From Deltaproteobacteria bacterium (GTDB lineage Bacteria > Myxococcota_A > Bradymonadia > REDH01), in NCBI GenBank assembly GCA_007693585.1, contig REDH01000086.1, positions 1 to 62,203 on the forward strand: a stretch of DNA of 62,203 bases, read 5' to 3'. The notes beneath the pieces are model-generated. The model made no database searches, was not told the DNA's origin, and saw only the letters and a list, made by a program, of their open reading frames with translations. A program made the translations under genes and the position numbers. Shown here in pieces: positions 17,904 to 25,232 of the stretch (position 1 is the first letter of the stretch; every line of letters starts with the position of its first letter).

Positions 17904-19724
17904 ATGGAAGAAGGGGCCCCCATGGCTCCTCAACTCCACCCTCCAGCACACGACAGCGCGGCCATGAACGGAACCCCTCGCATCCAGCGAATCTCACGCA
18001 TTCTCGCCCTCTCGGCGGGGAGTCTCTCCATTCTGCTCGCCCTCTCCGGTTGCGGTTCGGGAGGCGGGCTCGACCCGCAGGAACCGTCCGAGTCGTTCGC
18101 CCTCGACGAGTGCGAACGAGATCGGGACTGCGTCGGCGGGGAGCAGTGCCTCGAGGGTCTCTGCAGGGAGCTCTGCGCCGTGGAGGACGGGTGCGAAGGC
18201 CCGCTCCCGTTCTGCGATCTCGGGCGAGGCATCTGCGTCGCCTGCCTGACCGACGACGACTGCGGCGGCGGCCGGTGTGACGAGCTGCGCTGCCGGGCAT
18301 CCGGCTGCGGCGAAGGACCCGCATGCGGGGAGGGAGAGATCTGCGACTTGGCCGAAGGCATCTGCCTGCCCGAGACCTGTTCCGTCAACACTGACTGCCC
18401 CGGCGGCTTCCAGTGCCGAAACGACGAGTGCACACCCATCGAACAGGCCGGATGCACACCGGGAACCTCCCGCTGCTCCGGGGACGTGGCCATCCGGTGC
18501 TCCGCGGCCGGTGCCGAGCAGCGCGAGGACTGTGCCGTGCAGGAACGCGCCTGCCGTGTACAGGGCGGGGAAGCCATCTGCGAAAGCCCGATCGGACCCC
18601 CGGCGACCGAGGAACCCGGCACGGAAGTTCCCGGCACGGAAGTCCCGGGCACGGAGGTTCCCGGCACGGAAGTTCCCGGCACGGAAGTCCCGGGCACGGA
18701 AGTCCCGGGCACGGAAGTCCCGGGCACGGAAGTTCCCGGCACGGAAGTCCCGGGCACGGAAGTCCCGGGCACGGAAGTTCCCGGCACGGAGCCAACGGAC
18801 TGCAATGAGGGAGAGGTCGGCTGTTTCTCGTCCGAGCTCGCCTGGTTCTGCGACGAGGACGAGCGCATCGCGGTACCCTGCGGCGCCGGGGAGCAGTGCA
18901 GGGCGGGCGCCTGTGAGCCACCCCCCACGGGGCCGGGTTCCTGCGGCGCGGCGCGCGCCCAGTGCTCCGCGCCGGGGTGGCCCTCCGGACGGTTGCTCCT
19001 GGCGCGACCGGGCGATACCATCGCCTGCAGCGGCGCCGGGAGCACCGGTGCGGACGGTGCGTCGGCCACAACGTGGACGTGGACGCATGTGACTCCATCC
19101 GAGGGGGCGCCGTTCACCCCCTCGGCGACGGCGCGCGACGCCAGCTATGCCGTGGGCGAACCGGGACCGGAGATCGTGCGCCTGGAGAGCGGGAACGCCG
19201 CTGGAGACGCCTGCGAACCTGAATGGGTGCAGACCGCCGTGGTCGACCGCTCCTCGGAGGGACTGTTCATCGTGATCGGATGGAGGGCGGAAGCCACCGG
19301 GTCGCCGATGGGCTCTCGCGATGTGGATGTCTACCTCCGCCGTGGTGAGACGGGGCTCTGGCGCGGCTCGGGTACTTCGGTGTTCTGGCAGCAGCGCGCC
19401 CCCACATGGACGCGGGGGGAGCGGCTCATGAACCCGGTGCTCGTGCAGGACTCGATCCGGGACGGGGGGCCCGAGGTGCTCCACGTCCCGAGCTGGTTCT
19501 CCGAAGAGACCTTCAGCGTGGGCGTTCACTACTACACCACCACCAACAACGCCTCCGCCGCTCCGGTGCTCGTCGACCTCCTGCTGGTGCGGGATGGCCG
19601 AGTCGTGCACCGCAGCGAGGGCGTGCGCCTCGGAGGCGATCAGCAGTTCTGGCACGCGGTTGACTTCAGCGGCTCCAGCCCCACCGTCACCCCGGTGAAC
19701 GCGTTCTCGCGATTCACCGAGTGA
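17904..19724 (+). CDS. Cys-rich lipoprotein with (GTEVP)n linker
   Basis: 606 residues from ATG 17904, which has GGAGAG 5 nt upstream. An ATG at 17964 would give a more normal 30-residue signal peptide but has no ribosome-binding site. Lipobox LSGC. Residues about 65-220 hold Cys-rich modules (CERDRDCVGGEQC, CLTDDDCGGGRC, CSVNTDCPGGFQC). Then come eleven GTEVP units, another Cys segment, and a C-terminal beta-rich domain of about 270 residues that starts near the GDTIACSGAGSTG segment and looks PKD/Ig-like, ending in an unassigned module. Predicted to be surface-exposed. I recognise no enzyme motif. Confidence 0.75.
   Translation: MEEGAPMAPQLHPPAHDSAAMNGTPRIQRISRILALSAGSLSILLALSGCGSGGGLDPQEPSESFALDECERDRDCVGGEQCLEGLCRELCAVEDGCEGPLPFCDLGRGICVACLTDDDCGGGRCDELRCRASGCGEGPACGEGEICDLAEGICLPETCSVNTDCPGGFQCRNDECTPIEQAGCTPGTSRCSGDVAIRCSAAGAEQREDCAVQERACRVQGGEAICESPIGPPATEEPGTEVPGTEVPGTEVPGTEVPGTEVPGTEVPGTEVPGTEVPGTEVPGTEVPGTEVPGTEPTDCNEGEVGCFSSELAWFCDEDERIAVPCGAGEQCRAGACEPPPTGPGSCGAARAQCSAPGWPSGRLLLARPGDTIACSGAGSTGADGASATTWTWTHVTPSEGAPFTPSATARDASYAVGEPGPEIVRLESGNAAGDACEPEWVQTAVVDRSSEGLFIVIGWRAEATGSPMGSRDVDVYLRRGETGLWRGSGTSVFWQQRAPTWTRGERLMNPVLVQDSIRDGGPEVLHVPSWFSEETFSVGVHYYTTTNNASAAPVLVDLLLVRDGRVVHRSEGVRLGGDQQFWHAVDFSGSSPTVTPVNAFSRFTE
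18618..18782 (+). repeat. 15-bp tandem repeat, 11 units, encoding GTEVP
   Basis: Eleven 15-bp units of the form GGCACGGAAGTYCCS. Variation is almost all synonymous, with two unit types ending TTCCC or TCCCG, plus one partial unit. Copy number can change without a frameshift. Confidence 0.92.
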
Positions 19725-20328: not shown

Positions 20329-21471
20329 CTAGAAGCGCACGTCCAGACGCTCTCCCGGACGGGCCGGCAGTCCCTCCGGCAGGCTGAGCCGGACGGGAAC
20401 GCCCCACTCCGGGACGCCGGGGTCGGACCGCTGGTGCTCGGGAAGCAGTTCGACGGAGTCGCCGACCTGCAGCACGGTGGCCAGCCAGCTTGCGTTGTGT
20501 ACCGGAAGCGGGCGAACGCGCGCATTCTGACCGGGTTGCGGGCGCCGCGGGTCATGCTGCGGGATCCACGCGACCACGGACTCCCGCTGGGATGAGGTGA
20601 GGCGAACGACGGGATCGCCTGCGCTCACGACCTCGCCGGGCTGGCGATGGATCGCGGTGATGGTGCCGCTGGAGGGGGCGCGAATCTCGAGGTCTTCCCG
20701 GCGCTGGGAGAGCAGTTCGAGCTCGGCCATATGGACGGATATCCGGGCCTGGAGGGGCGCGAGGATGTCGTCCAGATCGGGCTCGTCGGGAGGCTCAAGC
20801 TCCCCGAGGCGTCGCTCGGCCTGCCGCAGCTCCCGGCGGGTCTCGACGAGCGCCTGCTCCTGCTCGCGAAGGTCCGTCTCGACCTGCTGGCGCTCGAGCT
20901 CGGCGATGCGGAGCGCGTTGGGGGTCTCGGCGCCGCGTTCGGCGAGGTCGCGGAGGCGGGCCTCCTGCTCAAGCGCGCGATCGCGGGCCATCCGGAGACT
21001 CTCCACCTGGGCGCGTCGGTCGATCACGTCGATGCGCAGTCCCTGGACGTCGACGCCGAGTCTCTGTCGGGTGAGCGCCTGGTCCAGCAGGTCCGATTCG
21101 CGGTCGATCCGGGAGCGTGCCGTGGTGGCGACGATCTCGGCGCGGGTGACCTCGACCTCCGCACGGAGCACCGCAAGCTCGGCCTGAAGGTGCCGGTCAT
21201 CGATGCGCGCCAGGAGCTGGCCTTCCTGGACGACGTCAAGGAGGGCGAGACGGCTTGCGGGCAGCTCCACGAGTCTTCCCTCGATGGGGCTGGCGAGCTC
21301 CCAGCGCTCGGCGAGAACTTCGCCGGGGAGCCCCCCGACGGGCTCGTGCTGGTTCCACAGCCAGACGCAGGCGAGGATGCCGAGGACGAGGGCGACGGGC
21401 GTGCCGTACTGCTGCAGGGCGCGCTGGAGCCTGCGGCGGGCGGGAACGGGGATGGGACGATGGGTGGTCAC
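20329..21471 (-). CDS. HlyD-type membrane fusion / periplasmic adaptor protein
   Basis: 380 residues. One N-terminal membrane segment (VALVLGILACVWLW), a lipoyl/barrel-sandwich half-motif (ASPIEGRLVEL...VQEGQLLARID), a long coiled-coil hairpin (about residues 85-250, very rich in Glu/Arg/Gln/Leu), then the second half-motif (IRAPSSGTITAIHRQPGEVVSAGDPVVRL) and a beta-barrel C-terminal region. This is the architecture of periplasmic adaptors for export systems. No cognate ABC or RND pump is beside it; instead its GTG overlaps the stop of the DUF4956 gene (GTGA), making it the last gene of a VTC-DUF4956-MFP operon. Confidence 0.85.
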   Translation of the reverse strand: MTTHRPIPVPARRRLQRALQQYGTPVALVLGILACVWLWNQHEPVGGLPGEVLAERWELASPIEGRLVELPASRLALLDVVQEGQLLARIDDRHLQAELAVLRAEVEVTRAEIVATTARSRIDRESDLLDQALTRQRLGVDVQGLRIDVIDRRAQVESLRMARDRALEQEARLRDLAERGAETPNALRIAELERQQVETDLREQEQALVETRRELRQAERRLGELEPPDEPDLDDILAPLQARISVHMAELELLSQRREDLEIRAPSSGTITAIHRQPGEVVSAGDPVVRLTSSQRESVVAWIPQHDPRRPQPGQNARVRPLPVHNASWLATVLQVGDSVELLPEHQRSDPGVPEWGVPVRLSLPEGLPARPGERLDVRF

Positions 21472-22175
21472 ACTTCCGCCTCCTCCTCGCGCCGGAAGTA
21501 CGAGGCTTCACGGACGTGGTCGAGCTCCTGCAACTCGGCGACGAGCTCGGCGGAACGGTCGGGGTCGCGCATTTCGAGATGGTAGTTGAGGCTCATTTCG
21601 TCGCGGTCGGAACGCTGACTGGCGAGATCGGCGCGCAGGGTGTGGCGCTGGAGCACGGGGAGGACCGGGCCGAGGGTGTCGTCTGCGCCTGCGCCTGCGC
21701 CTGCGAGCTGCAGGCTGAGCATGGCGTCGTAGCGCTCCCGGCTCCCGAAGCCGACGGAGCGCAGCCACGCGAAGAGGAGGGTGAGGGAGACGGCGCCGAC
21801 GACGGCCAGGCCGAAGCGCATGGTGCCCACGGCCATGCCGGTCATGATCGCCCACAGCACGAAGCTGGTGTCCCGGGTGTCCTTCACGATGTTCCGGAAC
21901 CGGACGATGGCGAAGACGGCGAACAGCCCGAACGCCACGATGATGTTGTCGACCATGATGAGCATCACCAGGGCGACGATCATCGGCAGGGCCGCCATGG
22001 CGACGGTGAACGAGCGAGAGTAGGACACGCCCTGATGGGTGCGCACATACACGAGCCCGATGATCTGACCGAGCACGAACGCCAGGACAAGAGTCAGGGC
22101 CACGGCGTGCAGGCCGCCGGGGGTACCGGTCCACTCACCGGTGGAGAGTGCATCGAGGAGACCGTCCACGGTCAC
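21468..22175 (-). CDS. DUF4956 membrane protein
   Basis: 235 residues. Three or four membrane segments span about residues 20-150, with the DUF4956 signature SRSFTVAMAALPMIVALVM, VAFGLFAVFAIVRFRN and KDTRDTSFVLWAIMTGMAVG. A soluble C-terminal domain of about 90 residues follows (LRADLASQRSDRDEMSLNYH, LVAELQELDHVREASY), resembling a ferredoxin-like regulatory fold. The function is not established. DUF4956 genes are often found beside VTC-domain genes, as here: its GTG overlaps the VTC stop (GTGA) and its stop overlaps the next GTG. Confidence 0.85.
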   Translation of the reverse strand: MTVDGLLDALSTGEWTGTPGGLHAVALTLVLAFVLGQIIGLVYVRTHQGVSYSRSFTVAMAALPMIVALVMLIMVDNIIVAFGLFAVFAIVRFRNIVKDTRDTSFVLWAIMTGMAVGTMRFGLAVVGAVSLTLLFAWLRSVGFGSRERYDAMLSLQLAGAGAGADDTLGPVLPVLQRHTLRADLASQRSDRDEMSLNYHLEMRDPDRSAELVAELQELDHVREASYFRREEEAEV

Positions 22176-22945
22176 GCGCCCTGGGAATGGAACATGGGTC
22201 GTCGGGCGTCGCGGCGCACACGGTTCTCGCCGAACGACTCCACACTCCAGCCGTACTTCGGCACCGACTGTCGTTCAAGCCGGAAGATGTGGACCAGTTC
22301 CTGAAGCCAGCGGGGCCAGCGGTTCACGTACTTGATCTCGAAGATGACCTTCTTCTCGTGCCCGCTCACCAGCGGAATGTCCGTGTGCAGGCCCCGGTCC
22401 GGGTCGTAGGCGAGCGCGCGCAGGTCGCGGTCGAAGGTGAGCCTGGCGTTGGAGGTGCTGACGTCGAGGTAGGCCTCGCGGTTGTAGCCCACGATCAACG
22501 TGGGGCGCGCGTCGAGGTTGCGCTGGAGTTCCTGAAAGTCGAGCAGGTCCCGGCGTTCGCGGGCCGGGTTCAGGAGTGCGCTGTCCGGGAGATCCCGGAA
22601 GGACAGGAGCGCGTCGAGCGCGCTGCGGTGGACTCCGGCGCGCTGCTTGCGAATCACCTGATCGGCGCGCCGCTTGATCTCGCAGAAGATCGGGGAGTCC
22701 CGGCCATCATCGTAGTACCGGATGCGGAGCTTGAACCGGTTCTTTTGGCCCTCCGCCGCCGTGCGGTAGAGCGTGAGCTCGGGGCTGTCGAGATAGAGGC
22801 TGTAGACCGGATAGCCGCGCGGATGGTCCGCCGTGAGGTGCTCGTCCGGCTCGACGCGCGTGCGGAGCCATGCGCGCACCTGGCGCGCCCGGGCCTCGGT
22901 GAGGACGTACTTTCGCTCGAAGCGATTGGCGAGGAAGGACTGCAT
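22172..22945 (-). CDS. VTC-domain protein, putative polyphosphate polymerase
   Basis: 257 residues, essentially a single VTC catalytic domain. Basic and acidic tunnel residues expected from yeast Vtc4 seem present: FERKYVL, YSLYLDSPELTLYR, RFKLRIRYYDD, FCEIKRR..QVIRKQR, VGYNREAY, LTFDRDLRAL and FEIKYVNRWPRWL. In yeast the domain makes polyphosphate from ATP and feeds it through a membrane channel. Enzyme activity here is inferred. ATG 22945. First gene of a three-gene operon in which every junction is a 4-nt GTGA overlap. Confidence 0.85.
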   Translation of the reverse strand: MQSFLANRFERKYVLTEARARQVRAWLRTRVEPDEHLTADHPRGYPVYSLYLDSPELTLYRTAAEGQKNRFKLRIRYYDDGRDSPIFCEIKRRADQVIRKQRAGVHRSALDALLSFRDLPDSALLNPARERRDLLDFQELQRNLDARPTLIVGYNREAYLDVSTSNARLTFDRDLRALAYDPDRGLHTDIPLVSGHEKKVIFEIKYVNRWPRWLQELVHIFRLERQSVPKYGWSVESFGENRVRRDARRPMFHSQGA

Positions 22946-23039: not shown

Positions 23040-25232
23040 TCAACGACGAACATCGGCGAGCGCGAGGGCCTCGTCCACGGGAAGCGCCGGCGACCAGAGC
23101 CATCCCTGGCCGAGCTGCACCCCCAGGCTCTCGAGGATCGCAAGCGCTGCGCTGGTCTCCACCATCTCCGCGACCACCTCCTTGCCCAGGCTGTGGCACA
23201 CCTGCACCATGGCTCCGACGACGGACTGCAGCGTCGGGTCGCTCTCCAGGTTGCGGATGAACGAACCGTCCAGCTTCACGCGGTCGGCGGGAATCCGCCG
23301 CAGGTAGTCGAAGGTCGAGAAGCCCGCCCCGAAGTCGTCGAGCGCGAACTGGCAGCCTCGCTCCTGCAGCGCCTGCATCCAGGCCAGCGCGCCGGTCAGA
23401 TCGCTGACGGCCGTGGACTCCGTGATCTCCAGGGTCAGGCGCCCGGCCAGCTCGGGGGTCGCCTCGAGCTCCGCCATGAGCCACTCGAGGAGCGAGTCGT
23501 CCGTGAGCCCCTGTGCGGACAGGTTGACGAACAGCTCAAGATCCGGCTCGCGGCGGAGCAACGCGAGAGAGTGCTCGATCACCCATCGGTCGATCCGTCC
23601 CATCCAGCCGAACCGCTGCGCCGGGGGCAGGAACTCGCCCGGGGAAACAAAGCCGCCCTCCCCATCCGGAAGCCGGAGCAGGACCTCGAAGTACGCCGGC
23701 GCCACCCCCTCCGAGTGCGGGAGCCGGAAGATCGGCTGGAGGTGCAGCGCGAAGCCGTCATTCCCGAGCGCCTCTTCAACCGTGCGGAGCCACCGCCCGG
23801 CCTGCCCGAGCTCGCTCTTCGACTCGGACAGGCTGGGGTAGTACTCGCAGCGACCCCGGCCCCGCTCCTTCGCGGTGAACAGCGCCACCTCGGCGAGGCC
23901 GAGCAGCTGCTCGGGCTCGCCTGCCGCATCCAGCGGAACCATGCCCCCGCTGAGCTGGGCGTCGCGAACCGCGGTGGACGTGTCCGTGCCTGCCGCGGCT
24001 GCGAGCAGGGCCTCGCTGACCCGCGCAAAAAACGCTCGCCCTGCCTCGGCATCGCGGCCCGGGAGCACCGCGACGAACTCGTCGGAGCCCACACGGGCGA
24101 TCGTGTCGGAGGGATCGCGTGCGTCACGAAGGACGTCCGCCAGCTGGCACAGCAGGCGATCCCCGCCCGCGTGGCCGTGTGCGGTGTTGACCAGCTTGAA
24201 GTGATCGAGATCCATCAGGAGCAGGACCCCGACGGGCCGACCAGCGCGAGGCGGCTCATGTCGCGCCGCGCGCAGGGGGGCGATCAGACCGCGGCGGTTC
24301 GGAAGGCGCGTGAGGGGATCGATGCTCGACGCGCGCAGCAGCGCCAGCTCGCGCGCCATGCGCTCCTCCTCGGCCTCGTGCTGGCGCGTCACGTCCCGGC
24401 ACGTGCCCAGCGCCCCCACCGTCCGACCGTCCGGCAGGCGGAGCGGCACGGTGGTGCACTGCAGGTAGACCGGCCTGTTCGACGTCGTCCACACCATGGA
24501 GAAGCGCGTCGTCCGACCCTCCAGGGCGTCGTCGATCGCGCGGGACAGCAGCGGACCGTGCTCCGGCATGACCTCGCCCGGACGTTTGCCGATCGCCAGC
24601 CGACCGATCAGCTCGAGACGCCGAGGCAGGCGACCCTGCAGCCCCGTGAGACAGCCGGACGCGTCCACGGAGAAGACCAGATCGTCAATGGCCTGCAGGG
24701 TGCCGGTCAGGGCCCCCACCGTGAGGGAGAGTGCCTGTCGACGTTGCTCCAGCCGGCGGACCAGCCGATACACGAGAAGGAAGATGAGGCATGCCGTCAG
24801 GCCGACGAACGCGAGGCCCTTCAGCGTCTGGGCCGCATGCTGGTGCGCCGGGTCGGGGAAGAGCTGGACCACGAGCTGATCGGAGCCCACGATCCACAGC
24901 ACGGACAACAGCAGGAACACGCCGGCCACACCCGCCGCCTCACGCCATGGGACGAATGCCGCGCCACTCCCCGTCTCGACGGCCGCCCAGACGTGCCGAT
25001 CGGTCAGGTCGTTGCCGAGCAGATCCGTCGCGAAGGTGACCGGCTCCGCAAGCTCCTCCGTCGTGGTGAGCTCCCCGGATTCGGGCATGGGCGATGCGGC
25101 GGCCATGCCCGAATCCGGAGTCGACGCAGACGTCCCTGTACCGGAGACCTCCGGATCCCGCACTCGCTCCGCGGACGTCGGACCGCCTGTATCGCCAATG
25201 CCCAAGTGGCCGCCTCCCTGTGACTTACCCAC
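23040..25232 (-). CDS. Membrane GGDEF-EAL c-di-GMP signalling protein with PAS-like domain
   Basis: 730 residues from GTG 25232; a TTG at 25205 has a better ribosome-binding site (GGGAGG) and is a serious alternative. Order: low-complexity N-terminus, two membrane segments (about 110-165), PAS-like domain (AIDDLVFSVDASG), GGDEF domain with a changed signature GSDEF, and EAL domain. The EAL motif reads EVL, but metal and catalytic residues look intact: VNLSA, LEITES, LDDFGAG, KLDGS, AEMVET and QG. A working phosphodiesterase is therefore plausible, and cyclase activity is doubtful but not excluded. A 16-bp inverted repeat lies in the first 160 nt of the reading frame. Confidence 0.88.
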   Translation of the reverse strand: MGKSQGGGHLGIGDTGGPTSAERVRDPEVSGTGTSASTPDSGMAAASPMPESGELTTTEELAEPVTFATDLLGNDLTDRHVWAAVETGSGAAFVPWREAAGVAGVFLLLSVLWIVGSDQLVVQLFPDPAHQHAAQTLKGLAFVGLTACLIFLLVYRLVRRLEQRRQALSLTVGALTGTLQAIDDLVFSVDASGCLTGLQGRLPRRLELIGRLAIGKRPGEVMPEHGPLLSRAIDDALEGRTTRFSMVWTTSNRPVYLQCTTVPLRLPDGRTVGALGTCRDVTRQHEAEEERMARELALLRASSIDPLTRLPNRRGLIAPLRAARHEPPRAGRPVGVLLLMDLDHFKLVNTAHGHAGGDRLLCQLADVLRDARDPSDTIARVGSDEFVAVLPGRDAEAGRAFFARVSEALLAAAAGTDTSTAVRDAQLSGGMVPLDAAGEPEQLLGLAEVALFTAKERGRGRCEYYPSLSESKSELGQAGRWLRTVEEALGNDGFALHLQPIFRLPHSEGVAPAYFEVLLRLPDGEGGFVSPGEFLPPAQRFGWMGRIDRWVIEHSLALLRREPDLELFVNLSAQGLTDDSLLEWLMAELEATPELAGRLTLEITESTAVSDLTGALAWMQALQERGCQFALDDFGAGFSTFDYLRRIPADRVKLDGSFIRNLESDPTLQSVVGAMVQVCHSLGKEVVAEMVETSAALAILESLGVQLGQGWLWSPALPVDEALALADVRR
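25075..25118. repeat. Perfect 16-bp inverted repeat in the 5' part of the GGDEF-EAL gene
   Basis: CCGGATTCGGGCATGG at 25075-25090 and its exact complement CCATGCCCGAATCCGG at 25103-25118, with a 12-nt loop. In mRNA it would form a very stable hairpin just after the predicted start codon. It encodes unremarkable residues (PDSGMA and PMPESG), so the symmetry is not forced by the protein. Confidence 0.85.

Follow-up and report, generated by a model that had tools for sequence, protein, structure and literature searches.

A conserved VTC-DUF4956-adaptor gene set as a candidate synthesis-coupled envelope export module

Polyphosphate synthesis in bacteria is credited to PPK enzymes in reviews (e.g. 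PMC7332688). In eukaryotes, synthesis by the VTC complex is coupled to passage of the polymer across the membrane, by way of a channel that is lined by basic residues (PMC9911596). We analyzed a 62,203-nucleotide stretch of DNA, here called the window, with an operon for a VTC-type polymerase, a DUF4956 membrane protein and a HlyD/EmrA-like adaptor. Like the eukaryotic VTC complex (Vtc1/Vtc3/Vtc4), this system has a VTC/TTM polymerase domain with its tunnel residues. Unlike that complex, it lacks SPX, its membrane part is DUF4956 instead of the Vtc1-type domain of three transmembrane (TM) helices, and the bacterial system has an envelope adaptor and an outer-membrane channel. Tripartite efflux and type I secretion systems (EmrAB-TolC, MacAB-TolC, HlyBD-TolC) share the adaptor fold and a TolC-like channel, but here DUF4956 and the polymerase occupy the place of the pump, and the operon has no MFS, ABC or RND pump. 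Among the accessory genes of Gram-positive pel clusters, a VTC-like polymerase, DUF4956 and CotH are found together (PMC7112168); however, no HlyD- or TolC-like gene is described there, and no pel-type family was recurrent in the loci that we examined. Synthase-dependent polysaccharide secretion (Alg8/Alg44) offers a further parallel with its synthesis-driven export, HlyD-like periplasmic part and lack of a separate pump, whereas its synthase is a membrane glycosyltransferase and the VTC enzyme studied here is predicted to be cytosolic.

In the open-access literature that was searched, we found no description of a VTC-DUF4956-adaptor-TolC system. Within that literature, papers naming DUF4956 described no adaptor or TolC-like gene with it, and the search for CotH with polyphosphate gave no account of the VTC-DUF4956-adaptor system. 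As preprints and most subscription papers were outside the scope of this search, it is only provisionally that we call this gene set, which is conserved across many phyla and often has its own outer-membrane channel, apparently undescribed.

The three genes (22945-20329, minus strand) are joined by GTGA overlaps of 4 nt, and at both junctions the start codon GTG overlaps the stop codon TGA (Table 1). All three open reading frames were supported as genes by their codon-position GC. Pfam analysis of the neighbours revealed no pump gene adjoining the operon, and there is no MFS, ABC or RND gene within it. The operon contains neither a TolC-like channel gene nor a CotH kinase gene, and promoter and terminator scans found nothing. 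A convergent DoxX gene lies downstream. Co-transcription of the upstream PAS-GGDEF-EAL gene with the operon is possible; a link to c-di-GMP via this gene was set aside because no such gene was seen to recur as a neighbour among relatives. Elsewhere in the window, the gene at 17904-19724 (plus strand) encodes a protein without a Pfam match that has Cys-rich regions and a tandem repeat of PGTEV.

Table 1. Positions of the operon features and the upstream gene in the window.
Feature	Position	Strand	Details
VTC-type (triphosphate tunnel) polymerase	22172-22945	-	257 aa; PF09359 E 7.7e-36
DUF4956 inner-membrane protein	21468-22175	-	235 aa; PF16316 E 1.1e-9
HlyD-like periplasmic adaptor (membrane fusion protein)	20329-21471	-	380 aa; PF13437 (HlyD_3) E 4.1e-12, PF16576 (HlyD_D23) 5.7e-8
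GTGA overlap, VTC stop / DUF4956 start	22172-22175	-	sequence
GTGA overlap, DUF4956 stop / adaptor start	21468-21471	-	sequence
PAS-GGDEF-EAL gene	23040-25232	-	94 bp upstream of VTC, same strand

The window VTC protein matched PF09359 with 124.3 bits (cut-off 23), and NCBIfam gave no match for this protein or for the DUF4956 protein. A profile of the window protein and its relatives identified the yeast Vtc4 crystal structures 3g3q and 5iiq as the nearest solved relatives (E 7e-13 and 3e-12). A residue map showed that R196, K200, R264, R266, K281, K294, Y359, R361, R373, E426 and K458 of Vtc4 are all kept in the window protein, where their counterparts are R8, K12, R74, R76, K91, K100, Y154, R156, R168, E203 and K230. 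This amounts to 11 of the 13 Vtc4 residues checked, and the same 11 are conserved in all eleven VTC relatives that were checked. The two exceptions are K455, which is S in the window protein and is not conserved among the relatives either, and S457, which is P in the window protein only and not in the eleven relatives. Literature support exists for R264, R266 and E426, the combined mutation of which impaired yeast VTC (PMC9911596); the other residues are ones that we take to be tunnel or catalytic residues of Vtc4. The tunnel is apparently intact, and polymerase activity is inferred from the homology and these residues. The gene is the sole VTC gene of its genome. Since PPK1 is also encoded there, VTC is not required for ordinary cytosolic polyphosphate. 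An earlier, sequence-only reading of the locus had claimed the consecutive GTGA overlaps, the presence of the catalytic tunnel residues and the absence of a pump near the adaptor. All three claims held. Among the neighbours in the relatives, no pump family is recurrent.

The window DUF4956 protein scored 38.7 bits with PF16316 (cut-off 30.6) and is a member of a divergent, low-scoring subgroup. Its AlphaFold model (pLDDT 85.6) predicts five TM helices followed by a C-terminal ACT/ferredoxin-like domain. Conservation across 57 proteins revealed the invariant motifs T46-G49-S51-Y52-S53 and R92-x-R94...D102 (TxxGxSYS and RxR...D), which are predicted by the positive-inside rule to face the cytosol. 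A sequence-profile search against solved structures returned nothing significant, and a fold search with the model returned mostly ACT-type domains, including the MgtC C-terminal domain 2lqj, none of them below E 0.001. Profile alignment with MgtC/SapB (hhalign) gave a probability of 94-95% over 110-113 columns, while the controls (MgtC alignments that were reversed or had their columns shuffled, plus two further membrane proteins) all stayed below 1%. On the strength of this controlled comparison we regard DUF4956 as a probable remote homologue of MgtC/SapB, with the reservation that Pfam MgtC did not match the window protein. The two families share an alignable membrane region and an ACT-like C-terminal domain, but differ in their conserved motifs and operon context. 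To our knowledge, no MgtC homologue acts as an exporter.

For the adaptor, the AlphaFold model (pLDDT 92.2) predicts an N-terminal TM anchor (11-41), a barrel-sandwich, a beta-barrel and a long alpha-helical hairpin (93-260). The best match in a fold search was EmrA (4tko, E 7.7e-18), followed by components of EmrAB-TolC and MacAB-TolC; EmrA and MacA are adaptors of TolC pumps. Adaptors of at least 550 aa with a C-terminal extension were found at 34 of the 75 surveyed loci, which is about half. We also observed that the long adaptors span 550-780 aa (about half of the adaptors in L039-L112; e.g. L030 1351-3351 and L025 5905-7896) and that some of the extensions are weakly phytase- or DUF6929-like.

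DUF4956 relatives were present in 18 of 58 related genomes, and a genome-wide scan for such relatives yielded 80 loci. By record title these belong to Myxococcales, Planctomycetota, Verrucomicrobiota, Kiritimatiellota, Neomarinimicrobiota, KSB1, Ignavibacteriae, Desulfobacteraceae, Halobacteriovorax, Bryobacteraceae, Hydrogenedentota and Sumerlaeota, and many of the records are metagenome bins. An adaptor gene lies directly next to DUF4956 in 69 of the 75 loci with more than 1.5 kb of downstream sequence, and a TolC-like outer-membrane gene is present in 43 of the 61 loci with more than 4 kb. The gaps between the DUF4956, adaptor and channel genes are only a few bp (median 5). Pfam confirmed HlyD in 29 of 33 sampled adaptors and OEP in 22 of 28 sampled channels. 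VTC was found nearby on the DUF4956 strand in 68/80 loci; some of the 12 loci without a same-strand VTC are contig ends, and in others, such as Sorangium, VTC is truly absent from the vicinity. Clustering of the neighbours at the surveyed loci revealed no conserved pump family, and no glycosyltransferase family was recurrent among the neighbour clusters checked. Because the scan started from DUF4956 proteins that are linked to an adaptor, the proportion of 69/75 describes that lineage and not all DUF4956 proteins.

As a check for this bias, an independent Pfam-based search was performed, which detected DUF4956 in 158 of 334 genomes of the window's phylum. From this phylum we sampled 20 high-scoring (canonical) and 40 divergent DUF4956 loci. 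An adaptor was present in 26/40 divergent versus 0/20 canonical loci (Fisher p 5e-7) and a TolC-like gene in 14/40 versus 0/20, with VTC being found in 35/40 divergent and 18/20 canonical loci. In eight of the 20 canonical loci the adaptor is replaced by one gene family with apparent signal peptides, located directly 3' of DUF4956, and one member of this family was confirmed by Pfam as DUF2490. Canonical pairs with such a follower gene were seen at L163-L166, L170, L179, L181 and L182.

In a tree of 110 DUF4956 proteins, nearly all operons with both an adaptor and a TolC-like gene fell in one group of 78 rows (98, starred). The window protein clustered with those of L109 and L112 (96, starred), which are adaptor-only lineages; this was a quick tree, and the window branch is long. 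Since the adaptor-bearing lineages neighbouring the window in the tree likewise have no TolC-like gene, its absence from the window operon looks like a lineage trait and not like damage. The genome of the window does encode five TolC-like proteins; for two of them (on contigs C82 and C139), the neighbouring genes that were examined include no pump. The gene on C82 is located between rpsA-like and mlaC-like genes and the one on C139 beside HSP70; with a profile of the operon channels, the C82 gene scored best (41.9 bits) and the C139 gene scored 12.8 bits.

These surveys show, for the loci included, that the adaptor marks a broad DUF4956 lineage and that canonical VTC-DUF4956 pairs lack it. The sequence-only reading had regarded the adaptor as unusual, which did not hold; the survey that it proposed as a check, on conservation of the adaptor beside VTC-DUF4956, was run and found the adaptor conserved. 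Its broader proposal of a module for polyphosphate or another anionic polymer with an export arm is supported by the adaptor and TolC linkage, with polymer identity and movement remaining inferences. As most operons add a TolC-like gene, an envelope-spanning arm is more likely than could be seen in that reading.

We consider a synthesis-coupled envelope export module to be the best explanation for this gene set and hold it with moderate confidence; product and transport are both inferred, and there is no polymerase or transport assay for any member. In this model, the cytosolic VTC protein would convert ATP into polymerized phosphate. VTC would dock on the cytosolic side of DUF4956, where the conserved motifs, including the invariant arginines, are predicted to be located. 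The nascent anionic chain would then enter DUF4956, acting as an MgtC-like inner-membrane gate in the pump's stead; this role is likewise an inference, for which no pore has been shown. On the periplasmic side, the inner-membrane-anchored adaptor would take over the chain; in most relatives it would then pass the chain on to a TolC-like channel in the outer membrane, the gene for which comes next in the operon, a step for which the linkage is shown and the transport, including its direction, inferred. In the window's lineage, an unlinked TolC-like protein may serve as the channel, or the product may remain periplasmic. If true, this would give Gram-negative bacteria a VTC-type route to make polyphosphate and place the polymer on or outside the cell, DUF4956 would have a role, and an adaptor/TolC conduit would be powered by polymer synthesis rather than by a pump.

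Several other explanations were weighed. VTC might make or transfer another phosphate-containing product, for instance by decorating an exopolysaccharide, with the adaptor/TolC arm secreting that product. In favour of this, Gram-positive polyphosphate-polymerase-like, DUF4956 and CotH genes adjoin pel polysaccharide genes (PMC7112168), and synthase-dependent polysaccharide systems use HlyD-like partners without a pump, as with Alg44. However, the lack of a recurrent glycosyltransferase family among the neighbour clusters checked, together with the Vtc4 polymerases being the closest solved relatives of VTC and the agreement in tunnel residues, makes it improbable. We are similarly doubtful that the adaptor works with a conventional pump (MFS, ABC or RND) encoded elsewhere, with the linkage reflecting co-regulation and VTC-DUF4956 filling a store in the periplasm or cytosol. 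Adaptors of the HlyD type do not normally function without a pump, and the fold of this adaptor is closest to that of EmrA, the partner of an MFS pump; yet adaptor and channel genes follow DUF4956 at very short distances in many phyla without any recurring pump family.

Less credible still is the view that the gene set is an envelope stress or phosphate-homeostasis unit without polymer export, in which DUF4956 regulates ions or phosphate in the manner of MgtC. The remote MgtC homology and the ACT-like domain speak for it, but it leaves the conserved adaptor, the TolC-like channel and the secreted neighbours unexplained. Placement of the adaptor beside VTC-DUF4956 by chance or local rearrangement would fit its absence from the canonical pairs (0/20), but is refuted by its presence in 69/75 loci of the wider lineage across many phyla and can practically be ruled out; linkage of all three genes recurs in dozens of genomes unrelated to one another.

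The recurring extra neighbours of the operon (CotH, lamin-tail and PPDK-like proteins) are mostly predicted to be secreted or lipid-anchored. CotH or lamin-tail genes were linked in 27 of 43 full-context loci. A PPDK_N-domain protein recurs beside VTC-DUF4956, with a lipoprotein-like signal in the copies that have a clear start, and two further families accompanying it also have such a signal. These calls were made with a simple hydropathy/lipobox rule and not with a trained predictor; on the basis of these predicted signal peptides, the PPDK-like proteins would carry a phosphotransferase fold that seems to be located beyond the cytoplasm. PPDK_N-domain proteins of this lipoprotein-like type were noted at L041, L087, L090, L172, L175, L181, L185, L213 and other loci. 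Under the export model, the product would act outside the cell with these surface CotH, lamin-tail and PPDK-like lipoproteins; the linkage is recurrent and the function inferred. Lipoproteins with a CotH fold or of the PPDK-like type are repeatedly found next to the operon, and a bolder reading can be formulated, in which bacteria of many phyla export VTC-made polyphosphate via a conduit of DUF4956, adaptor and TolC, and surface phosphotransferases draw their phosphoryl groups from the exported polymer outside the cell, where ATP is scarce. We regard this extended version as unlikely, use of the polymer by surface phosphotransferases being an inference; if true, the source of phosphoryl groups for secreted kinase-like proteins such as CotH becomes testable. 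A search of the window's genome for a PPDK-like lipoprotein found none. This genome does encode two tandem CotH lipoproteins on contig C60 (L239, 7070-9394 and 9410-11623, plus strand), which are unlinked to the operon.
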